Below are positions 1 to 38,226 of a stretch of DNA of 38,226 nt, one piece after another. The position numbers and the translations under genes were made by a program. The number at the start of each line of letters is the position of its first letter. The first letter of the stretch is position 1. Under the pieces are notes generated by a model. That model had not been told where the DNA came from. It did not search any database and saw only the letters and a list, made by a program, of their open reading frames with translations. The stretch is from Candidatus Gastranaerophilales bacterium (GTDB taxonomy: Bacteria; Cyanobacteriota; Vampirovibrionia; Gastranaerophilales; Gastranaerophilaceae): contig CANPZB010000014.1 in assembly GCA_947588755.1 (NCBI GenBank), forward strand, positions 1 to 38,226, written 5' to 3'.

Positions 1-660
1 TCCGGTAACGAGCTGATGTTCGTACCGCTCAAATCCAAATAACCCCCGACAGTGAGGTTGTCCGGTAACGAGCTGATATTCGTACCTCTCAAATCCAAAC
101 CACCCCCAACAGTGAGGTTGTCCGGTAACGAGCTGATATTCGTACCGCTCAAATACAAACCACCCCCAACAGTGAGGTTGTCCGGTAACGAGCTGATGTT
201 CGTACCGCTCAAATCCAAATCACCCCCAACAGTGAGGTTGTCCGGTAACGAGCTGATATTCGTACCGCTCAAATCCAAATAACCCCCGACAGTGAGGTTG
301 TCCGGTAACGAGCTGATATTCGTACCGCTCAAATCCAAATCACCCCCAACAGTGAGGTTGTCCGGTAACGAGCTGATATTCGTACCGCTCAAATCCAAAT
401 AACCCCCGACAGTGAGGTTGTCCGGTAACGAGCTGATGTTCGTACCGCTCAAATCCAAATAACCCCCGACAGTGAGGTTGTCCGGTAACGAGCTGATGTT
501 CGTACCGCTCAAATACAAATCACCCCCGACGGTGAGGTTGTCCGGTAACGAGCTGATATTCGTACCGCTCAAATCCAAATAACCCCCGACGGTGAGGTTG
601 TCCGGTAACGAGCTGATGTTCGTACCTCTCAAATCCAAACCACCCCCAACAGTGAGGTTG
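1..660 (-). repeat. 60-bp tandem repeats, 11 units (LRR coding)
   Basis: Eleven head-to-tail 60-bp units, each beginning tccggtaacg on the plus strand and nearly identical. Differences fall at a few fixed columns: atg/ata (silent), ctctc/cgctc (Arg/Ser), atcc/atac (Asp/Tyr) and the codon after Gly-Gly (Tyr, Gly, Asp). The same unit makes up 37939-38226. This is protein-coding tandem repetition, not a CRISPR array: there are no unique spacers. Confidence 0.97.
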
Positions 661-731
661 TCGTTATCGATTACATAATCAATTTTGTACGCATCTAAAT
701 AAGTTTTTAAATCAAAATATTTTGTTTTCAT
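1..731 (-). CDS. Leucine-rich-repeat protein, N-terminal part (runs off window start)
   Basis: Starts at the ATG at 731-729 behind GAGGTG. A unique head of about 24 residues (beginning MKTKYFDLKTYLDAYK) is followed by eleven 20-residue repeats of the type NLTVGG-x-L-x-L-x-GTNISSLPD. The frame stays open to base 1. It continues into the LRR gene at the other end (37454-38226) if the ends are joined and one T of the junction is counted once. The repeat is LRR-like: Leu and Ile at regular spacing, with LPD turns. There is no signal peptide, so it probably acts in the cell. It is the downstream part of the minus-strand early operon, 33 bp after the HNH-like gene. LRR folds usually bind proteins, but the target here is unknown. 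True repeat number is uncertain because the assembly breaks here. Confidence 0.8.
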   Translation of the reverse strand, partial: MKTKYFDLKTYLDAYKIDYVIDNDNLTVGGGLDLRGTNISSLPDNLTVGGYLDLSGTNISSLPDNLTVGGDLYLSGTNISSLPDNLTVGGYLDLSGTNISSLPDNLTVGGYLDLSGTNISSLPDNLTVGGDLDLSGTNISSLPDNLTVGGYLDLSGTNISSLPDNLTVGGDLDLSGTNISSLPDNLTVGGGLYLSGTNISSLPDNLTVGGGLDLRGTNISSLPDNLTVGGYLDLSGTNISSLP

Positions 732-1094: not shown

Positions 1095-1326
1095 TCCAAA
1101 AATACCTTTTGTAGCGTATTGTTTTCTTAAATTTTTTGCCGCCTATCTCTGATTCGGTCGTTTTACTTTCCCAAGTATCCGCTATCGAATTATAGCCGTA
1201 TTTTGCTCTTAAATCGCGGATAATTCCGTGCGGACAAGTACACCAAACTAATTGTTGAATTTCAAGTGTACTCAGCGTTTTGTATTTTTTCAAGTAATTT
1301 TCAACCTGTTCGATTTTACTTGGCAT
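1078..1326 (-). CDS. Small HTH-domain phage protein, 82 aa
   Basis: Start chosen at the ATG 1326-1324, which has a strong AGGGGGAG just upstream. A longer reading from 1350 adds eight residues without a ribosome site. Residues 1-50 (MPSKIEQVENYLKKY...) look like a compact winged-helix domain of the kind found beside phage replication genes, with LSTLEIQQLV and IIRDLRAKYG as helical blocks. The C-terminus is basic and aromatic. It overlaps the 3' end of the initiator gene (stop at 1316), so it is translationally coupled. Probably DNA binding; the exact role is unknown. Confidence 0.6.
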   Translation of the reverse strand: MPSKIEQVENYLKKYKTLSTLEIQQLVWCTCPHGIIRDLRAKYGYNSIADTWESKTTESEIGGKKFKKTIRYKRYFWNEKTA

Positions 1327-2185
1327 ACTCCCCCTTCCTTGCCTGTTCACGAACTTTTTGGAAAAAGTCCGGCGGCAATTTTACTTCGTTTTCAATCGTT
1401 TCTATTTGCTTAATTTCTGTGTTTTGTTTGGCTTTTAAACGCTCTGTGCGCTCTTTTTCTTCATCGAGTATCGTTTGATAATCGCCGCTATTGATGATTG
1501 TACGCATATAAGCGTTGAAGTTTCGCACATTGTTGCGTTTACAGAAAGATTTAAAAATCTCTCTCTCTCTTTTTCCAATTCGCACCACCGGTTCATTCGG
1601 ATTTACGTGCGTGCGCACGTTATAGAGAGAGAGATTTATCTCTCTCTCTTTCTTTACTTCTTGTTTGTTGTCGTTTTCATGACAAGTTGCGTGTCGTTTG
1701 CATGTCGCTACTTCAGTTGTATCACTGTTAGAGCTTGCGTTTTCGCTTGTCGTTTGTGTGCCATTTTGCGTGTCGTTTGCATGTCGCTCGTTTGTCGCTA
1801 CTTCGGTTCTATTACTGTCAGAGTTTGTGTTTCCGTTTGTCGCTGACTTTCTGTTTTCGTTAGTTTCTGACTTCCCGTTTTCTTGCCATTTAGACCAATT
1901 CAAAATCGTAATCAAAGTAAATTGATTATTTGTTTTAATTTCAATTTCGCCGGATGCGCTTAATCTTTCTATTGAAGTTCGAACTTGTCTGACAGTCAGA
2001 TTAGTCTCTTGCGCAAGTCTATTGTATGAAGTTATAAGCTGACCGGCTTTTATCACTTGCCCACGCCATTTTTTCTCGTCGTGATTTGCGATTAACAGCA
2101 AGTGTATAAAGGTTACTTTAGTTGGTATATCTTTGTACCATTCCCATTCTAAAGTTTGTCTATAAAGTTTGATGTACCCCTTCAT
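1316..2185 (-). CDS. Phage replication initiator / replisome organizer-like protein, 289 aa
   Basis: Start set at MKGYIKLYRQT (2185); the reading from 2272 only adds shadow sequence of the upstream gene. N-terminal residues 1-100 match the winged-helix initiator type: WEWYKDIPTKVTFIHLLL, then IKAGQLITSYNRLAQETNLTVRQVRTSI, and ILNWSKWQ at the end of the domain. A low-complexity Asn/Thr/Ser/Glu linker follows (about 100-190). The C-terminal module has FNAYMRTIINSGDY and ends in a basic tail. The same C-terminal module occurs in the second initiator-like protein at 33873. The linker DNA holds repeats and palindromes, as in lambda O where the origin lies inside the initiator gene. It likely opens the origin and loads host helicase. 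Confidence 0.75.
   Translation of the reverse strand: MKGYIKLYRQTLEWEWYKDIPTKVTFIHLLLIANHDEKKWRGQVIKAGQLITSYNRLAQETNLTVRQVRTSIERLSASGEIEIKTNNQFTLITILNWSKWQENGKSETNENRKSATNGNTNSDSNRTEVATNERHANDTQNGTQTTSENASSNSDTTEVATCKRHATCHENDNKQEVKKEREINLSLYNVRTHVNPNEPVVRIGKREREIFKSFCKRNNVRNFNAYMRTIINSGDYQTILDEEKERTERLKAKQNTEIKQIETIENEVKLPPDFFQKVREQARKGEYAK
1558..1788. other. Candidate replication origin within the initiator gene
   Basis: The linker-coding part of the initiator gene contains a CT-dinucleotide tract (from about 1558), a near-palindrome acgtgcgtgcgcacgt (1605-1620) and a perfect 12-bp inverted repeat of GA/TC dinucleotides (1624-1635 and 1638-1649, 2-nt loop). It also holds a perfect 23-bp direct repeat (1687-1709 and 1766-1788; it begins ttgcgtgtcg), around which the flanking sequence is also duplicated at about 79 bp spacing. 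Iterons inside an initiator gene are known for lambda O. That these are bound by this protein is an inference. Confidence 0.4.
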
Positions 2186-2405
2186 CTGTCGTCTTTTCCT
2201 TTTCCTTTGGAATAAAAGCCTCAATATAAAAATCGGGTGCTTTTTCATTGTCTTTTTTGTTTTTGTTTTCAACCATTACAAACCGCTTCAATTTGTCAAT
2301 TTGAAACGGCATTATTGCTTCATCAAAAAGTAATGAATAACCGTACTCTACATTCCCTGCATCTGATTCTTTTTTCTTTATCCATGCCGCACCAATTCTT
2401 GTCAT
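2160..2405 (-). CDS. Small DUF736-like phage protein, 81 aa
   Basis: Begins MTRIGAAWIKKK, the opening seen in many small phage proteins of DUF736 type, and later has APDFYIEAFIPKEKE, consistent with the short beta-rich fold of that group. It lies between the annealing protein (start overlaps its stop by 4 nt) and the initiator (overlap of 26 nt), so it belongs to the replication/recombination module. Function is not established. Confidence 0.5.
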   Translation of the reverse strand: MTRIGAAWIKKKESDAGNVEYGYSLLFDEAIMPFQIDKLKRFVMVENKNKKDNEKAPDFYIEAFIPKEKEKTTDEGVHQTL

Positions 2406-5977: not shown

Positions 5978-6601
5978 ATGAAATATAATGAGGTTTTATG
6001 CCGTTTACAAAACTTAATAAATCGTGTACCACTCCAATCGGAATTGATACAAATTTTGGGTTTGAAACAATCTACAATGTCTGAACGAGCAAAACGAAAC
6101 TCTAAATTTACGCCCAATGAAATTTTGTTATTAAACAAACACTATGGCATCAATTTATATTCCACAATCACAAATGTATCACAATCCGAAAACACACTAA
6201 CACTCACCTATTACCCTGATGTTTACCTCTCGGCAGGTTACGGTGTTGAAGTTTACGATGAAACACCTGAAAAAATAACATTGGATGCCCGATTACTTGT
6301 TACTGAAAGAGGGAATATGATTAACCCTGCAAATTGTGAGATTGTAAAAGTGAGCGGTAATTCTATGTCTCCGGAATACAGGCATGGTGATAGGGTTATA
6401 ATAGACCGTAGCGATATCGAACTTATGGACGGTCAAATATACGCTTTTCGATATAAAAAGCAATGTTATGTTAAAGAAATAAATCTTCTTGGAAATAGAA
6501 TTAAATGTATTTCTTTAAATAAAGAGTATGACCCTTTTTATATTGAAAGTGATGAAGATTTTATTGTCTTAGGCAGAATATTACCCCGTATTCGTTTATA
6601 G
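5978..6601 (+). CDS. LexA/CI-like repressor with S24 self-cleavage domain, 207 aa
   Basis: An N-terminal DNA-binding segment (about 1-65, with LKQSTMSERAKRNSKFT as the likely HTH) is joined to a peptidase S24 domain. The cleavage site fits Ala86-Gly87 (LSAGYG). The catalytic Ser is Ser129 in KVSGNSMSPEY and the Lys is Lys166 in CYVKEI. The length fits CI/LexA-type phage repressors. AGGTGG precedes the ATG. It is divergent from RHH protein C. Its presence indicates a temperate phage whose repressor is inactivated by RecA-stimulated self-cleavage after DNA damage. Confidence 0.92.
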   Translation: MKYNEVLCRLQNLINRVPLQSELIQILGLKQSTMSERAKRNSKFTPNEILLLNKHYGINLYSTITNVSQSENTLTLTYYPDVYLSAGYGVEVYDETPEKITLDARLLVTERGNMINPANCEIVKVSGNSMSPEYRHGDRVIIDRSDIELMDGQIYAFRYKKQCYVKEINLLGNRIKCISLNKEYDPFYIESDEDFIVLGRILPRIRL

Positions 6602-25665: not shown

Positions 25666-26877
25666 ATGCCGGAAGGTATAACAGACATAGGACTTGAGCT
25701 TGACGATTATAATACATTATTAAGCAATATCCAAAATAATTTTACAAATATTTATGCCCAAGACGGAGATGAGATAAATTTTGGGTCGGAAACACCCGAC
25801 GGACAGCTGACAAATATAATTGCCCAAATGGGTAATGATATCAGAGAATTGTATCAAGATGTTTACAATTCTTTTGACCCCGAAAAATGCACGGGTGTTG
25901 TACAAGATAGCCGATATGCACTCAATTATTTAACTCGTGAAGGCGGCACATATACTATTCAAAATATAGATATTACCGTAAATAGAACGGTAACCCTTGA
26001 AGGCTTAGACAGTGCCTATAACGACCCTAGTGCAGCATCCTATACTGTTTCAGATAACGCAGGGAATTTATGGTATCTAATTGATACCGTAACTTTAGAA
26101 AACGGAACAAGGTCATTGCCTTTTCGTTCGCAGAATTTGGGGTTAGTACAGCCTGTAATCGGAACAATAACAAACCAAGTAACAAAAAAATTAGGGGTTT
26201 TATCTGTCAATAATTCGGTAGCTCCTACAACTTTAGGGGTAACGCAAGAATCAGATTTGAATTTTTATTTAAGACGGAATCGGTCAACAGCCAAAAAAGG
26301 TCAGAACAATTTAGATGCGATGCTGGGGCAGATTTTAGACTTAGACGGGGTCAGCGATGCTACTTGCTGGGTTAATGACAGTCCGACAGATACAGACGAA
26401 ACGGGCACCCCACCTTTGACAGTTTGGATAATAGTTGAGGGTGGTGCTAACTCGGATATTGCCGATGTTATTTATGCAAACGCATCGGGATTACCGACAA
26501 GAGGTGATGTAAGCGTGGATGTTCCTGCGGTATCAGGTCAAGTATTCCCGGTTAATTTTGACCGTGCAAACCCTGTACCGTTATACATAAAGTTTAATTT
26601 CAAGCTAACGGCAGAATTATCAGCAGTCAATTTTGACGGCATAAAATCTGATATGGTTGAAAACTTAGTTTATAAACTGAATGAAACGGCAGAAACATCA
26701 AAGATAACAGAAATAGCAAGCCAAGCGATATTAGCAAACGGTGGAGGGGGATATGCCTTAGATGTTCAAATTTCATTGGATAATCAGACTTGGACTGATT
26801 ATATACCCAGCTCATCTTTAAAGAATAAATTTGTTGTCGATAATACCCGAATAACTATAACAACCGAAGAAGAATAA
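25666..26877 (+). CDS. Baseplate J-like protein, 403 aa
   Basis: Opening GIELDDYNTLLSNIQNNFTN-type sequence, SETPDGQLTNIIAQMGNDIR and RYALNYLTREGGTYT, then the SDLNFYLRRNRSTAKKGQNN segment (Rx(S/T) helix) and LPTRGDVSVDVPAVSGQVFP, all typical of baseplate J proteins of medium length. AGGGGG precedes the ATG. It forms the wedges around the hub and transmits the contraction signal from the fibres. Confidence 0.9.
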   Translation: MPEGITDIGLELDDYNTLLSNIQNNFTNIYAQDGDEINFGSETPDGQLTNIIAQMGNDIRELYQDVYNSFDPEKCTGVVQDSRYALNYLTREGGTYTIQNIDITVNRTVTLEGLDSAYNDPSAASYTVSDNAGNLWYLIDTVTLENGTRSLPFRSQNLGLVQPVIGTITNQVTKKLGVLSVNNSVAPTTLGVTQESDLNFYLRRNRSTAKKGQNNLDAMLGQILDLDGVSDATCWVNDSPTDTDETGTPPLTVWIIVEGGANSDIADVIYANASGLPTRGDVSVDVPAVSGQVFPVNFDRANPVPLYIKFNFKLTAELSAVNFDGIKSDMVENLVYKLNETAETSKITEIASQAILANGGGGYALDVQISLDNQTWTDYIPSSSLKNKFVVDNTRITITTEEE

Positions 26878-27516
26878 ATGGAAAATTATATACAGATTTT
26901 ATTAGATTTTGAAAAATATTACGCAAACTTGCTGATTGTGCAATATAACGGAAAACCAAAGGCTATGGCAACGATAAAATTATTTGTTGATTTACTTTGG
27001 TGCAATATGGTTTTATTGCAAATACGAGACGGTTTCGATTGGAAAACTGCCGTCGGTAATCAGCTGGATATTATCGGGGCATGGTTAGGTGTAGATAGAT
27101 TTTACAACGGTCAATTATTCGATTTTCACCCGTGGTTTGCACTTATCGACTGGAACAAAGAGCCTGACAATTTGCAAGGAGGATTTTCAACTTTTGAAAC
27201 TTTTGAGAGTGTAGAGGGCGGTTTTTTAGGTTACGAAGTAGTTTTACCGACAAAAAATAAAATGGTTGATACTGCTTTTAGGATGATGATTGGTTTAAAA
27301 ATAATTAAAAACAATCTGAATATGACCGCCAAAAATATAGATAATGCAATTTGGAATTACTTTAGCGGACAAGTTTATACAGTATGGGAACCCCACAAAC
27401 TGATTTATTACTATTCTTCAACACTAACCGAGGTAATGCAAGTAGCATTAAGTAAAGATGTTTTACCCGTACCGACAGGGTGTCAAATTGAATTAAGGGA
27501 GATTATAAATGACTGA
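26878..27516 (+). CDS. Baseplate wedge/fibre-network protein (DUF2612), 212 aa
   Basis: FEKYYANLLIVQYNGKPKAM, then ATIKLFVDLLWCNMVLLQIR and AVGNQLDIIGAWLGVDRFY, followed by FRMMIGLKIIKNNLNMTAKN, are hallmarks of DUF2612, which takes the place of P2 gpI. It joins baseplate wedge to tail fibre. It begins directly after gene J and its stop overlaps the fibre start by 8 nt. Confidence 0.88.
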   Translation: MENYIQILLDFEKYYANLLIVQYNGKPKAMATIKLFVDLLWCNMVLLQIRDGFDWKTAVGNQLDIIGAWLGVDRFYNGQLFDFHPWFALIDWNKEPDNLQGGFSTFETFESVEGGFLGYEVVLPTKNKMVDTAFRMMIGLKIIKNNLNMTAKNIDNAIWNYFSGQVYTVWEPHKLIYYYSSTLTEVMQVALSKDVLPVPTGCQIELREIIND

Positions 27517-33004: not shown

Positions 33005-33366
33005 TGGAAATAGGTACAAAAATTGCCCTTGTTGCACTGGGAATAACAGTTTTAAGCAATATCATCTCTATTGTAATGTATTCATCGAAACAAACAACTG
33101 CTCTTGAAGTTTTAAAGATTTCTTTTGAGGATTTCAAAAAGGGCATGGAAAAGAACTTTGAGGATTTTAAAACAGAAATAAAGGAAAAAATCAAGGAAAG
33201 CAGATTGCACACGGACGAACACATCAAACGTCTTGAAGAAAAACAAGACAAACACAATTCAGTTATTGAACGTATGGCAATTGTCGAACAATCCGTTAAA
33301 TCCGCCCACCACCGAAATGATGATGTCATTATAAGATTGCAAAATTTAGAAAGGAAAGTTCATTGA
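33004..33366 (+). CDS. Membrane-anchored coiled-coil protein (holin/spanin-like), 120 aa
   Basis: One N-terminal transmembrane segment (IALVALGITVLSNIISIVMY, about residues 7-26) followed by a long charged coiled coil (SFEDFKKGMEKNFEDFKTEI, then HIKRLEEKQDKHNSVIERMA). The topology and the position directly before the amidase fit an inner-membrane lysis protein, either spanin-like or XhlA-like. It is not a typical holin with two or three membrane segments. Its TGA overlaps the TTG start of the amidase. Confidence 0.6.
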   Translation: MEIGTKIALVALGITVLSNIISIVMYSSKQTTALEVLKISFEDFKKGMEKNFEDFKTEIKEKIKESRLHTDEHIKRLEEKQDKHNSVIERMAIVEQSVKSAHHRNDDVIIRLQNLERKVH

Positions 33367-33830
33367 TAAAATATGTTATTGGACACTGGACAGGTGGAAT
33401 GCACCGTCCTAACAAGATAGACTTATCCAGCTACCAGCTCTTAATCGATTCAGACGGTAAACGTTATAACGGATTAGCTCCCGGCACAACATCGTCAACA
33501 GGCGGCATGAACTCAATTACATACAATATTTCTTGTTGCGGCGGTCTTTCAACTTCACCTATTACTAAAATACAGATTGAAGCGTTTTACAAAGCCTGCG
33601 CCGAAATTCTAAAAAAATATAATTTGACTCCGGATAAATTTTATACACACGCAGAGATAGGACAAATGTGCACAGACGGAACTATAACAAAGTTATTACC
33701 ATACAACCAGTGGTTATACCAAAACAAAGGCAAAATTGACTTGACTAAGTTACCTGATATAAACGGCACACCTGCTACTACTGGTAATTTTATCAGACAT
33801 AAAATTTTATGGTATTATGAGCGTCTTTAG
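33363..33830 (+). CDS. Endolysin: N-acetylmuramoyl-L-alanine amidase (Amidase_2), 155 aa
   Basis: TTG start with GAAAGG eight bases before. Amidase_2/PGRP motifs: VIGHWTGG with the first zinc His (His8), YNISCCGG, and KFYTHAEIG with the second His (His96). The third ligand is probably Cys103 (QMCTDGT), as in T7 lysozyme-type enzymes. No signal peptide, so it needs a membrane partner for release. It cuts the bond between muramic acid and the stem peptide. Confidence 0.88.
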   Translation: MIKYVIGHWTGGMHRPNKIDLSSYQLLIDSDGKRYNGLAPGTTSSTGGMNSITYNISCCGGLSTSPITKIQIEAFYKACAEILKKYNLTPDKFYTHAEIGQMCTDGTITKLLPYNQWLYQNKGKIDLTKLPDINGTPATTGNFIRHKILWYYERL

Positions 33831-33856: not shown

Positions 33857-33892
33857 AACCTTGCAGTAATCTTTATTGCAAGGTTTTTTTTT
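33857..33892 (+). terminator. Terminator at end of late operon
   Basis: AACCTTGCA (33857-33865) pairs with TGCAAGGTT (33877-33885) and a T-run follows to 33892. It closes the rightward structural and lysis operon. The stop codon of the convergent gene (33875-33873) lies in its loop. Confidence 0.88.
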
Positions 33893-34580
33893 GCCCTGAA
33901 ATCATTTTTCTGACATCATCCCAGTAACTTTTAGGTACATTTTTTACACAATTTTCGAGCGATTCCTTCATCTCTCTTTGTACTCTTTCATTTTCCTTTT
34001 CATAAAAAATCCTTCTAGCCTCAATCTGTTTGTATTCTTTGATGATTTGCGCCGCACCTCCATTACGAATTATTGCGTTTATATAAGCATTCTTATTTTG
34101 AACATTTTTACTTTTTGCATATTCAATTAAATATTTTCTATCCTCTGGGTTAATTTTTTGTTCTTTTTTAGGTTCTATACATGTATTATGACTTTTTGTC
34201 ATATCTAAAATGTCATTTTGGCTTTTATAATCTGACAAATTTTCAGGCTCAAAATTTTTTAAATCTTGAGTCGGTTTTTGAACGATTTTAGACGTGAATT
34301 TGTATCTGTTTGATGATTTACATTCGACAATAATTAAACCAGCCTTAACGAGCTCCTGAACGGCTCTAATTACAGACCGCTCTGAAATCCCCGTTTTATC
34401 GGCAATTGTTTTTTGTCGAGGGAATACATCGGCTTTTGCAGGATTGTAACAACCCGATAAATACAATAATACCAATTTTGCGGTTGGTGTAACATCGAAT
34501 TGTGAAAGATTGTTAAGCAAATTGTTAGTTAACCTAAATTGCGAAAAGGCATGCCCGGCATGCTTTTTGAGTTTTTTCAT
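33873..34580 (-). CDS. Second replication initiator-like wHTH protein, 235 aa
   Basis: Start chosen at MKKLKKHAG (34580) behind AAGGGGGAG; a reading from 34604 has no ribosome site. Residues about 20-100 form a winged helix: FDVTPTAKLVLLYLSGCYNP, VFPRQKTIADKTGISERSVI, then RAVQELVKAGLIIV, as in RepA/DnaD-type plasmid and phage initiators. The C-terminal part has NAYINAIIRNGGAAQIIKEY, like the module in the initiator at 1316. The upstream region contains a possible counter-transcript RNA. It could serve plasmid-like maintenance of the prophage, while the other initiator serves lytic replication. Confidence 0.7.
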   Translation of the reverse strand: MKKLKKHAGHAFSQFRLTNNLLNNLSQFDVTPTAKLVLLYLSGCYNPAKADVFPRQKTIADKTGISERSVIRAVQELVKAGLIIVECKSSNRYKFTSKIVQKPTQDLKNFEPENLSDYKSQNDILDMTKSHNTCIEPKKEQKINPEDRKYLIEYAKSKNVQNKNAYINAIIRNGGAAQIIKEYKQIEARRIFYEKENERVQREMKESLENCVKNVPKSYWDDVRKMISGQKKTLQ

Positions 34581-34612
34581 ACGCTCCCCCTTAATTTTTT
34601 GCATACTAACCG

Positions 34613-34641
34613 TTGCCTTTTGCAGTCCTGCGTGTTATACT
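34613..34641 (+). promoter_or_regulatory. Rightward promoter opposite the leader of initiator 2
   Basis: TTGCCT (34613-34618), 17-base spacer, TATACT (34636-34641). It points away from initiator 2 and begins within its leader region. The expected start is near 34648, giving a short RNA that ends at the terminator 34673-34704. Confidence 0.5.
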
Positions 34642-34647
34642 AATTAT

Positions 34648-34704
34648 GTTTTAATAAAGTATTTATAGTATTATGACTTTTGAACTGCAAAAGTCATTTT
34701 TTTT
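34648..34704 (+). ncRNA. Candidate counter-transcript / attenuator RNA, about 57 nt
   Basis: From the predicted start to the T-run there is only an AT-rich stretch and the perfect hairpin ATGACTTTTG/CAAAAGTCAT. No ORF is present. The part 34684-34693 (ACTGCAAAAG) is also perfectly complementary to 34617-34626 (CTTTTGCAGT), so longer transcripts could fold two exclusive ways. Plasmid initiators are often controlled by such antisense RNAs; this assignment is inferred. Confidence 0.45.
34673..34704 (+). terminator. Strong terminator in the initiator 2 / HTH gene interval
   Basis: ATGACTTTTG (34673-34682), loop AACTG, CAAAAGTCAT (34688-34697), eight Ts. No gene lies upstream on the plus strand, so it must end a non-coding RNA or act as an attenuator before the gene at 34822. 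Confidence 0.8.
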
Positions 34705-34757
34705 ATTTTATTTTTACTTGATTAATAATAGCAAGCATGCTAAATTAAAGTCAAGCC

Positions 34758-35160
34758 TTATTAATAACGGTTATCATCCTTGTTATTAAAGGTTTATAAA
34801 CATTATAAAGGGGTTAAAATTATGGAAAAAGAATTAAAAATCGCAGAATTAGCAAGCATTTTGGGAGTATCAATACCGACAACTTGGAATCGGATACGTA
34901 AAGACGGGTTAAAAACCGTTAAGAAACTTGATGAAAACCGCAAAGAAATAACTTATGTAATAGTTTCGGATGATTACGCAGAAAAGTATATTAACAACGT
35001 TATTAATAACGTTAATAATGTTGTTAATAACGGTAATTATGAAGATTTATTAACCGTTAATAACGATAATAATGTTAATAATAACCCCTTAAACACTCAA
35101 ATGCAGGGTCTTTCAGCCGTTGAAGTGTTCGACCGTTTAACAAATATTAATAACCGTTAT
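34758..35160. repeat. Iteron-like TTAATAAC-(C/G)GTTA repeats
   Basis: A partly palindromic element recurs: ttattaataacggttat (34758-34774, non-coding), gttattaataacgttaat (34999-35016), gttaataacggtaatta (35023-35039), ttattaaccgttaataac (35048-35065) and attaataaccgttat (35146-35160). Four copies lie in the gene and code for Asn/Val runs, but the first is in the promoter region. This suggests binding sites for the HTH protein or for an initiator. Confidence 0.55.
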
Positions 35161-35427
35161 AATGAAGAATTAAAAACTCTTAATAAAGACTTAGTGGATG
35201 CCAAAAGTAAATTACTGCTTTTAGAGGATAAAGCTAATCGTGAAGGATTTTATGTGAACGAAATAAACGAATTGAAAAAAGATAATAAAAAACTTTCAAC
35301 TTGCATGACAATTTTAATAATTTTTGTAATATTTTTATTAATAGTAATTTTATTTTTGAGCTTTAATTTTTCCAATTCGGATTTAAAAACAGATAAAACC
35401 CCTTCGATTCAAATCGAAAATAACTAA
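34822..35427 (+). CDS. HTH protein with Asn-rich linker, coiled coil and C-terminal membrane anchor, 201 aa
   Basis: Start at MEKELKIAELASILGVSIPT behind AAAGGGG; a reading from 34780 is only upstream sequence. Residues 1-60 are a winged or MerR-like HTH (ELASILGVSIPTTWNRIRKD), then an Asn-rich repeat region (NNVINNVNNVVNN), a coiled coil (NEELKTLNKDLVDAKSKLLL, LEDKANREGFYVNEINELKK) and a membrane segment (MTILIIFVIFLLIVILFLSF) near the end. DNA binding plus membrane anchoring would fit partition, segregation or membrane tethering of an episome. The function is unknown. I recall similar proteins from gut Gastranaerophilales, not verified. Confidence 0.6.
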   Translation: MEKELKIAELASILGVSIPTTWNRIRKDGLKTVKKLDENRKEITYVIVSDDYAEKYINNVINNVNNVVNNGNYEDLLTVNNDNNVNNNPLNTQMQGLSAVEVFDRLTNINNRYNEELKTLNKDLVDAKSKLLLLEDKANREGFYVNEINELKKDNKKLSTCMTILIIFVIFLLIVILFLSFNFSNSDLKTDKTPSIQIENN

Positions 35428-35527: not shown

Positions 35528-35740
35528 TTAGCAAGGAAACTCCACATCATCAAATGTTATAATTCCTTTTTTTAACCCTATTAAAATTGCTTGTAATCTT
35601 GTGCCACATTTTAATTTATCGCAAATGTGATGTACATGGTCTTTTACCGTTCTCGGTGATATAATCAGTTTATTTGCGATTTGCTCATTTGTTAAGCATA
35701 ATAAAGGCAACACTTCACGTTCACGTTTAGTCAATAACAT
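35528..35740 (-). CDS. LuxR/GerE-type single-domain regulator, 70 aa
   Basis: MLLTKREREVLPLLCLTNEQ, then IANKLIISPRTVKDHVHHIC, DKLKCGTRLQAILIGLKKG: the full GerE HTH with the TxREREVL start, the IAxKLxISxRTVKxHV recognition helix and the KLKxxxRxQA end. There is no receiver or ligand domain, so it acts as a free DNA-binding protein. GGGAGC precedes the ATG. It is the last gene of a leftward group after the methyltransferase. It may control late or host genes. Confidence 0.88.
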   Translation of the reverse strand: MLLTKREREVLPLLCLTNEQIANKLIISPRTVKDHVHHICDKLKCGTRLQAILIGLKKGIITFDDVEFPC

Positions 35741-37453: not shown

Positions 37454-38226
37454 TTATTCACGTTCAAAAAAGTTTTTAAAAGTATTGTAACCGTATTGAC
37501 CCTCCGTTGCTTTAAGCACTTCCGTCAAGGTCATTTTATCTTTGTATTTATCTTTGTTATTTTCAAGGTAATTATTTGTGCCAAAACTGCACGCGCCTGT
37601 GATTGTTCTGTAAGCAATTACCCAATAACTGAGGTCGTGGACTTCATCAGAGTTTAAACCTCTATATTGGCTTACATCTCTTTCGGATGTTTTAAACAAC
37701 CAGTCAAAATATGCTTGTCTTACAGTGTTTCCGTGAGCATAAACATTATCTTTGAAAAATATATATGCTGTTTTTAACCCCGTTTTAATTTTTAGGATAT
37801 TACCTTTTGAAGAAATTATTTCACAGAAAATGCCGTCAATTTTTCGATATTTCCCGTTCTGCCAACAAAGATTACTTTCAACCTCATTAGTAAAATTTCT
37901 CATAAATTTTTTTGAGGGTTTGTTGATTTTTTTACTTTTGATGTTCGTATCGCTCAAATACAAACTACCCCCAACAGTGAGGTTGTCCGGTAACGAGCTG
38001 ATGTTCGTACCGCTCAAATACAAATAACCCCCGACAGTGAGATTGTCGGGTAATGCGCTGATGTTCGTACCGCTCAAATACAAATAACCCCCGACAGTGA
38101 GGTTGTCCGGTAACGAGCTGATATTCGTATCGCTCAAATACAAATCACCCCCAACAGTGAGGTTGTCCGGTAACGAGCTGATATTCGTACCGCTCAAATC
38201 CAAACCACCCCCGACAGTGAGGTTGT
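37454..38226 (-). CDS. LRR protein, C-terminal part (runs off window end)
   Basis: Open from base 38226. About five LRR repeats (NLTVGGYLYLSGTNISSLPD type) are followed by a basic linker (KSKKINKPSKKF) and a domain of about 130 residues: NLCWQNGKYRKIDGIFCEII, KTAYIFFKDNVYAHGNTVRQ, AYFDWLFKTSERDVSQYRGL, YWVIAYRTITGACSFGTNNY and EVLKATEGQYGYNTFKNFFE. I recall this end domain from other LRR proteins of gut phages and bacteria, without a known function. It continues from the N-terminal part at 731-1; the ATG at 38203 is internal to a repeat and is not the real start. Confidence 0.8.
   Translation of the reverse strand, partial: NLTVGGGLDLSGTNISSLPDNLTVGGDLYLSDTNISSLPDNLTVGGYLYLSGTNISALPDNLTVGGYLYLSGTNISSLPDNLTVGGSLYLSDTNIKSKKINKPSKKFMRNFTNEVESNLCWQNGKYRKIDGIFCEIISSKGNILKIKTGLKTAYIFFKDNVYAHGNTVRQAYFDWLFKTSERDVSQYRGLNSDEVHDLSYWVIAYRTITGACSFGTNNYLENNKDKYKDKMTLTEVLKATEGQYGYNTFKNFFERE
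37939..38226 (-). repeat. 60-bp tandem repeats, about 4.8 units (LRR coding)
   Basis: Same unit as 1-660. Here Tyr is more frequent in the variable column (aaatacaaa), one unit has silent and Ala changes (gagattgtcggg...aatgcg), and two units have Asp in place of Gly (gtatcgctc). The last base is one T beyond the repeat phase of base 1. Confidence 0.95.

Follow-up and report, generated by a model that had tools for sequence, protein, structure and literature searches.

Gastranaerophilales are non-photosynthetic relatives of cyanobacteria. A phage genome assembled from this order raises the question of how a temperate phage in which no integrase is recognised would be kept in its lysogen. The window analysed here is the whole stretch of 38,226 bp, that is, the complete contig G000:C14 from a host assembly that comprises 89 contigs and 1.83 Mb. 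A preliminary description of this DNA had read positions 33873-35427 as probably serving to replicate and segregate an episomal prophage, and we examined this proposal by sequence analysis and by comparison with related contigs.

Circular genome of a temperate phage

The contig carries the genes of a contractile-tailed phage (terminase, portal, capsid, sheath, tape measure, and baseplate) together with Erf and exonuclease genes, and virion genes (terminase, portal, capsid, sheath) share one molecule with a plasmid-type Rep. The genes that frame the locus or bear on the life style of the phage are as follows.

1316..2272, minus strand: main replisome organiser, a DnaD-like helicase loader (PHROG DnaD-like loader, 2e-24)
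5978..6601, plus strand: S24-type repressor (PF00717, 2.5e-21), indicating a temperate phage
33363..33830, plus strand: lysis amidase (Amidase_2, 6e-12), last gene of the late operon and convergent with rep
35528..35740, minus strand: LuxR/GerE-type regulator (GerE, 4.5e-14), last gene of the leftward early operon and the other border of the module
1..731, minus strand: 5' part of a gene of LRR-like 60-bp repeats, broken by the contig ends
37454..38226, minus strand: 3' part, the other piece of the broken gene

When the contig ends were joined with a 1-nt overlap, the two gene pieces (1-731 and 37454-38226) formed one uninterrupted frame of 505 codons, and the 60-bp repeat was absent from every other contig of the host assembly. 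Because both ends lie in one repeat gene, the join restores the reading frame and the repeat is unique to this contig, the contig is, in the simplest reading of its sequence, a circle broken at its own repeat. The gene at the ends, of about 500 amino acids, consists of 20-residue LRR-like repeats, the number of which may have been collapsed in the assembly; repeat proteins were also seen in relatives (33% in Dulem virus 31, 50% in G039:C8). The GerE-type regulator had matches in G406 (49%), G404 (41%), and G405 and G408 (32% each).

An integrase-bearing relative without the module

When 383 genomes of the order were searched with the terminase, two matches were obtained besides the own genome. 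The closer of these relatives, G039:C8, has genes collinear with the region from 7.6 to 38 kb of the present phage. It is a prophage in tRNA-Ser(GGA), flanked by direct repeats of 34 bp (at 1871 and 46114), and encodes a tyrosine integrase with an adjacent small HTH gene; no Rep or Par match was found in it by tblastn. On G000:C14, in turn, no tyrosine or serine recombinase was detected with PF00589 and PF00239, the G039 integrase being found with PF00589 as the positive control, and there was no tRNA and no copy of the G039:C8 att core. Of two phages with similar virions, one has an integrase plus att and the other rep plus par. Since the module sits where the close relative carries its integrase and attachment site, this genome comparison indicates that the module probably replaces integration as the means of staying in the lysogen.

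Accordingly, two statements of the preliminary description, the presence of an S24 repressor and the lack of an integrase, held within these searches. That description had also named integrated copies with precise att sites as a finding that would speak against an episome. The related prophage does integrate in this manner, but its integrase takes the place of the module.

The second initiator gene

The module is bordered by the amidase gene, with which the late operon ends, and by the GerE-type gene, with which the early operon ends; its two genes, rep and par, are divergent.

33873..34604, minus strand: rep, a second, plasmid-type winged-helix initiator (P0001; Pfam HTH_36, 8e-14; PHROG 'replication initiation', 1e-14)
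34725..34754, minus strand: predicted rep promoter, TTGACT-18-TATTAT (10/12 matches, TG before the -10 element)

The rep gene starts at ATG 34604 or at ATG 34580, the latter with the SD sequence GGGGGAG. In the Pfam scan, Rep matched HTH_36, Phage_rep_O, DnaD_N, RP-C, and others, and neither Rep_3 nor RepA_N. The AlphaFold model, which is of low confidence, has a winged helix at the N terminus, followed by a disordered linker and by helices in the C-terminal part; fold searches with the Rep and Par models (pLDDT 66 and 69, low confidence) returned generic winged helices only. With P0001 alone as the query, no match was obtained in the viral-contig and genome-contig collections, and there was no match in the plasmid collection. 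A Rep homologue (53%) is encoded by Dulem virus 31, and more are found on phage and plasmid-like contigs. The claim of a second initiator-like gene is borne out by the two domain matches, and this gene is distinct from the initiator at 2272..1316 on the minus strand. We infer that the latter, DnaD-like protein is the main initiator and serves lytic growth.

At 34580-34604, a start resembling ATGCAAA.ATT lies upstream of the rep SD sequence and is in frame in this phage. In L028, the same upstream start would encode MQIF and stop at the SD sequence, which suggests a leader peptide.

A predicted antisense RNA over the rep leader

An antisense RNA over the leader of the second initiator gene had been called probable, and its elements were recovered by sequence prediction as listed below.

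34613..34641, plus strand: predicted antisense RNA promoter, TTGCCT-17-TATACT
34617-34626, plus strand: element B, CTTTTGCAGT, in the spacer region of this promoter
34648..34703, plus strand: predicted antisense RNA of about 55 nt, covering the rep leader and ending in a hairpin
34673-34697, plus strand: predicted terminator hairpin with T-run
34684-34693, plus strand: element A, ACTGCAAAAG, in the hairpin and perfectly complementary to element B

The same arrangement was observed in oriented rep-par leaders of other loci: a promoter points away from rep and is followed by a terminator hairpin at 5-43 nt, the distance being 16-43 nt except in L012 and L032. In most loci, the promoter spacer and the hairpin of the same locus are complementary even though the sequences differ. 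We picked promoter and terminator by a fixed rule, blind to complementarity, which yielded a pair in 13 of 17 loci. Summed over these 13 loci, the own pairs had a duplex energy of -198.6 kcal/mol; permuted pairs averaged -116.7 (sd 12.6), and none of 20,000 permutations reached the own-pair value. When close relatives were removed (11 loci), the values were -159.5 and -94.7, respectively, again with 0/20,000. Loci found later, a set that also took in L071, a near copy of L067, yielded a pair in 10 of 12 cases and gave -157.8 against -88.6 (sd 10.6; 0/20,000). The loci without a pair under the fixed rule (L060, L029, L013, and L010; in the later set L084 and L088) were left out of the permutations, and similar elements are visible by eye in several of them. 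Own-pair complementarity was weak in L012, L032, and L014, and in L085 of the later set. When six whole phage genomes were scanned blind, 27 promoter-terminator pairs were found, of which exactly the 6 rep/par ones had values of -15 or lower. Taken together, these findings indicate a predicted antisense RNA over rep that covaries with its target, the complementarity being conserved.

Folding with the antisense target masked lowered the predicted accessibility of the SD sequence in 11 of 12 loci (in L011 just from 0.19 to 0.17); in this phage, the same masking gave 0.59 to 0.62, that is, no drop. For the folding, hairpins and SD sequences were assigned by hand, L015 having no assigned SD, and promoters comparable to that of rep were assigned in the relatives used. 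Rfam contained no family for the antisense RNA, the sole match being at chance level (E 0.85).

A DNA-binding protein with a predicted membrane anchor

34822..35427, plus strand: par-like gene; wHTH (residues 1-50), linker, and a long coiled coil running into one TM segment (about 161-180)

The start of par is better placed at ATG 34822 than at TTG 34780. The hydropathy of the protein (KD19) peaks at 3.5 at residue 161, and in the predicted model a linker connects a winged HTH to a long helix with a hydrophobic end; the DNA-binding, membrane-anchored protein of the preliminary description was thus confirmed at the level of sequence, with HTH, coiled coil, and TM segment. A TM anchor was present in all 17 phage Pars tested, each with a hydropathy peak of at least 2.14. 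None of ten plasmid-type Pars had a TM peak (0.91 or lower); they end instead in an amphipathic-looking tail, aromatic and basic in sequence, e.g., KSFFGLKFGK and KKWWQVKLM, and the end of pSK1 Par is KKGFWSRLFGG.

A PDB sequence search with the Par profile found nothing convincing (best 0.003; RacA 0.3). DUF536 (PF04394) was matched by none of nine relatives, this phage's Par included, and by pSK1 Par at 3e-6. In hhalign, a 12-member profile aligned with pSK1 Par at a probability of 1% and over the HTH only, and homology to pSK1 Par, not being detectable in these tests, was rejected. Pfam and PHROG scans of 35 ORFs of the phage contig revealed no ParA or ParB; the neighbours of Rep are the Par-like, amidase, and GerE-type genes, with no ParA-like gene beside it.

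Chromosomal-looking homologues with HTH, coiled coil, and tail were observed in L128 (G066:C81, 5530-6183) and L123 (G060:C240, 1501-2157). MnmE adjoins the Par homologue in both, as does YidC in L128. The yidC/mnmE neighbourhood usually lies near the replication origin together with parAB, and the proteins of L128 and L123 may be RocS-like chromosome partition proteins.

Repeats in par and its promoter

34758..34777, plus strand: repeat copy TTATTAATAACGGTTATCAT (family D2), between the rep promoter and par
34989..35085, plus strand: repeat cluster with half sites of the GTTAATAAC type, inside par between HTH and coiled coil
35144..35163, plus strand: further repeat copy (family D2) in par

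Iteron-like repeats had been noted at this locus. They are indeed dense: the commonest 9-mer, with one mismatch or fewer, occurs in 13 copies, against a mean of 6.75 and a maximum of 10 in 200 shuffles. The shuffles preserved codons or dinucleotides, protein and codon use being kept. Among 244 windows of 600 bp of the phage, scanned with the repeat gene at the contig ends left out, this region had the highest repeat density, and the next non-overlapping window had 7. The proposed iteron role is unsupported by the location of the repeats, which lie in par and its promoter, with none in rep. Because of this location, a Par site, by analogy with self-regulating partition systems, is more likely than initiator iterons, and we regard the repeats as a candidate for such a site.

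In the TM-type loci, tested without L085 and L071, repeats exceeded every shuffle in 9 of 16 and reached 1/100 to 2/60 in three; they were not above the shuffles in L060, L083, L088, and L093. Ten relatives of the amphipathic type showed no clear repeat excess in leader plus gene (lowest 4/100), and the repeats as a general trait of the wider family were therefore rejected. In one of this type, L010, the leader alone gave 0/100 shuffles.

Distribution of the rep/par pair

A Rep search of 99 relatives, from family to class and with the own genome included, gave matches in 14, and in these a divergent HTH/coiled-coil neighbour was frequent beside the Rep-like gene. TM-type Pars were found in IMG/VR contigs and genomes, and one more lay beside a Rep match. 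Opposite the TM-type Par, 13 of 18 loci had a divergent Rep of the same family, four a shorter rep-like gene, and one (L083) none by BLAST. G363:C168, found later, holds both genes and enters none of the counts. The short rep-like genes of L067 (9185-9778) and L071 (8893-9486) are without a recognisable winged helix and stand opposite a TM-type Par, under the same kind of antisense element. In L060, a Rep_3 plasmid initiator (10840-11619; PF01051, 2e-32) was observed beside the rep/par pair of a phage contig.

In other phages, too, the divergent pair was seen next to lysis genes. Since Dulem virus 31, G407, and G404 have little else in common with this phage, the cassette seems, as judged from these sequences, to move between unrelated virion types. 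Five relatives are circular: G407, G408, G416, and G409:C24, with terminal overlaps of 111, 127, 113, and 55 bp, respectively, and Dulem virus 31, which is circular as deposited. No PF00589 match was obtained in Dulem virus 31 or in any of the 13 viral records tested, which include fragments. G409:C24, a contig from a bacterial bin, encodes in its early region (26412-26951) a catalytic-only tyrosine recombinase of 179 amino acids, which may resolve dimers rather than integrate. The record of Dulem virus 31 (PP511318.1, L003) is labelled Microviridae, a label that looks wrong for a tailed-phage genome of 35.8 kb that encodes a sheath and a terminase.

The pair was also present on a 4,104-bp contig with an exact terminal overlap of 36 bp, together with GIY-YIG and Abi_2 genes. 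On this plasmid-like circle, rep and par are the sole recognised replication genes, and no phage genes were recognised. Two further contigs were considered as circles. The circularity of G071:C62, in which rep is split over the ends, is suggestive only, because the ends overlap by 4 bp on C55 and resemble the sequences on either side of a single insertion in rep. G067:C112, whose ends share a repeat, was not accepted.

Comparison with known systems

P1 and N15 are extrachromosomal prophages with replicons of their own, and the locus had been likened to them. The likeness holds for the life style and not for the proteins: initiators and partition proteins differ, with no ParA/ParB or RepA seen, and there was no sign of N15-like linearity. 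A closer parallel in gene organisation exists in cluster A mycobacteriophages. According to PMC7157519, parABS occurs in 110 of 621 of these phages, colinear with integration cassettes; in RedRock and Miko the integration cassette is exchanged in place for replication and partition genes, the prophage is extrachromosomal, and repA is transcribed opposite to parABS, comparable to the divergent rep and par here. RedRock and Miko have ParA, ParB, and parS in that account, whereas the present phage has a single HTH-coiled coil-TM protein. It also differs in that its presumed host belongs to a different phylum and in that rep is accompanied by a covarying antisense element.

The staphylococcal plasmid pSK1 (NC_014369) likewise has a divergent rep and a single HTH/coiled-coil par, and its Par ends in a short aromatic and basic tail, as in the plasmid-type relatives found here. 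However, there was no significant sequence match, the Rep of pSK1 is annotated as replication initiator protein A, and the phage Pars have a TM segment where pSK1 Par has its tail. RocS of Streptococcus pneumoniae, as described in PMC11500499, has an N-terminal DNA-binding domain, a coiled coil, and a C-terminal membrane anchor; the likeness is one of layout, RocS being chromosomal and having DUF536 and an amphipathic helix. In that account, RocS, and possibly pSK1 Par, would tether DNA to the membrane, which for RocS is the proposed means of segregation, and RocS with another kind of anchor was reportedly not drastically impaired. In layout, the putative segregation gene of the phage resembles these single-protein systems (pSK1 Par, RocS) and not ParABS.

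No description of the module itself was found in the open-licence PMC literature, judged mostly by titles and abstract openings. The swap of integrase for partition genes is already known from mycobacteriophages. New is the combination, in phages of Gastranaerophilales, of this swap with a winged-helix Rep under predicted antisense control and a single Par that carries a predicted membrane anchor.

Proposed function and alternative explanations

We consider it probable that this temperate phage with a contractile tail is kept as a low-copy circular plasmid and that 33873-35427 is the replicon of the prophage, a judgement that extends to the mechanism below. From these sequences we infer that the module provides replication, copy control, and segregation. 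Rep would start replication of the resident prophage, and the DnaD-like initiator of the early operon would serve lytic growth. In the free rep mRNA, the antisense target A is expected to pair with B next to the rep start, consistent with their complementarity and covariation; binding of the antisense RNA would break the A:B pairing and may thereby lower the amount of Rep and set the copy number, although folding of this phage's own leader predicts no such drop. Par would bind the repeats in its own promoter and gene, acting as a repressor of its own synthesis and perhaps of that of Rep; the coiled coil with the TM segment would tether the circle to the membrane, so that each daughter cell receives a copy. 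The episomal reading of the preliminary description is supported by circularity, by the lack of an integrase and the tRNA-integrated, integrase-bearing relative without the module, by the occurrence of the module in other phages as well as on a small, plasmid-like circle, and by the covarying antisense RNA.

The pair might instead serve lytic replication, with Rep as an auxiliary initiator and the HTH-coiled coil-TM protein docking replicating DNA at the membrane. Protein p16.7 of phi29 docks replicating phage DNA in this way; the DNA-binding, coiled-coil, and TM parts would suit such an organiser, and the genes do sit in phages. Nevertheless, rep and par are not part of the early operon but are located between the end of that operon and the lysis genes, a related pair is on a circle of about 4.1 kb without recognised phage genes, an antisense brake on rep would be ill suited to burst replication, and the integrating relative with similar virion genes manages without the pair. 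We consequently hold this explanation to be improbable.

The prophage replicon has also to be weighed against two explanations in which the circle is not an episome. Integrase-free phages that use XerCD exist, and the phage could integrate via host XerCD at dif or by an unrecognised recombinase, the module being cargo for, e.g., incompatibility or superinfection exclusion; the recombinase search of the whole contig covered PF00589 and PF00239 only, and many small ORFs lay outside the scans. Yet the contig is circular and has no host flanks, there are five circular relatives, and a related pair is on a plasmid-like circle, which makes this somewhat less probable still than a lytic role. The least probable explanation, in our judgement, is that packaged or lytically replicating phage DNA was caught in the assembly and that rep and par are decaying remnants of recombination with a plasmid. 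A circular assembly alone is compatible with an episome, with virion DNA that is circularly permuted, or with a form that replicates lytically, but Rep and Par, like the antisense element, are intact and have been conserved among diverged phages, and the S24 repressor is present.

Implications

With about even chances, these observations extend to a widespread, undescribed lineage of phage-plasmids in Gastranaerophilales, in which segregation would depend on one ATPase-free, repeat-binding protein that tethers DNA by a TM segment. Plasmids of the same order would use a version with an amphipathic tail, and some chromosomes would carry it by yidC-mnmE; a class like RocS and pSK1 Par would then have been reached independently, or very anciently, outside Firmicutes. 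Outside mycobacteriophages, the locus offers a clean natural swap, related phages having either an integrase or a plasmid module in the same place. The use of two kinds of membrane anchor with one protein layout amounts to a natural experiment on membrane-tether partition. To our knowledge, no vectors exist for Gastranaerophilales, and the module is a compact candidate replicon with copy control for these gut bacteria.
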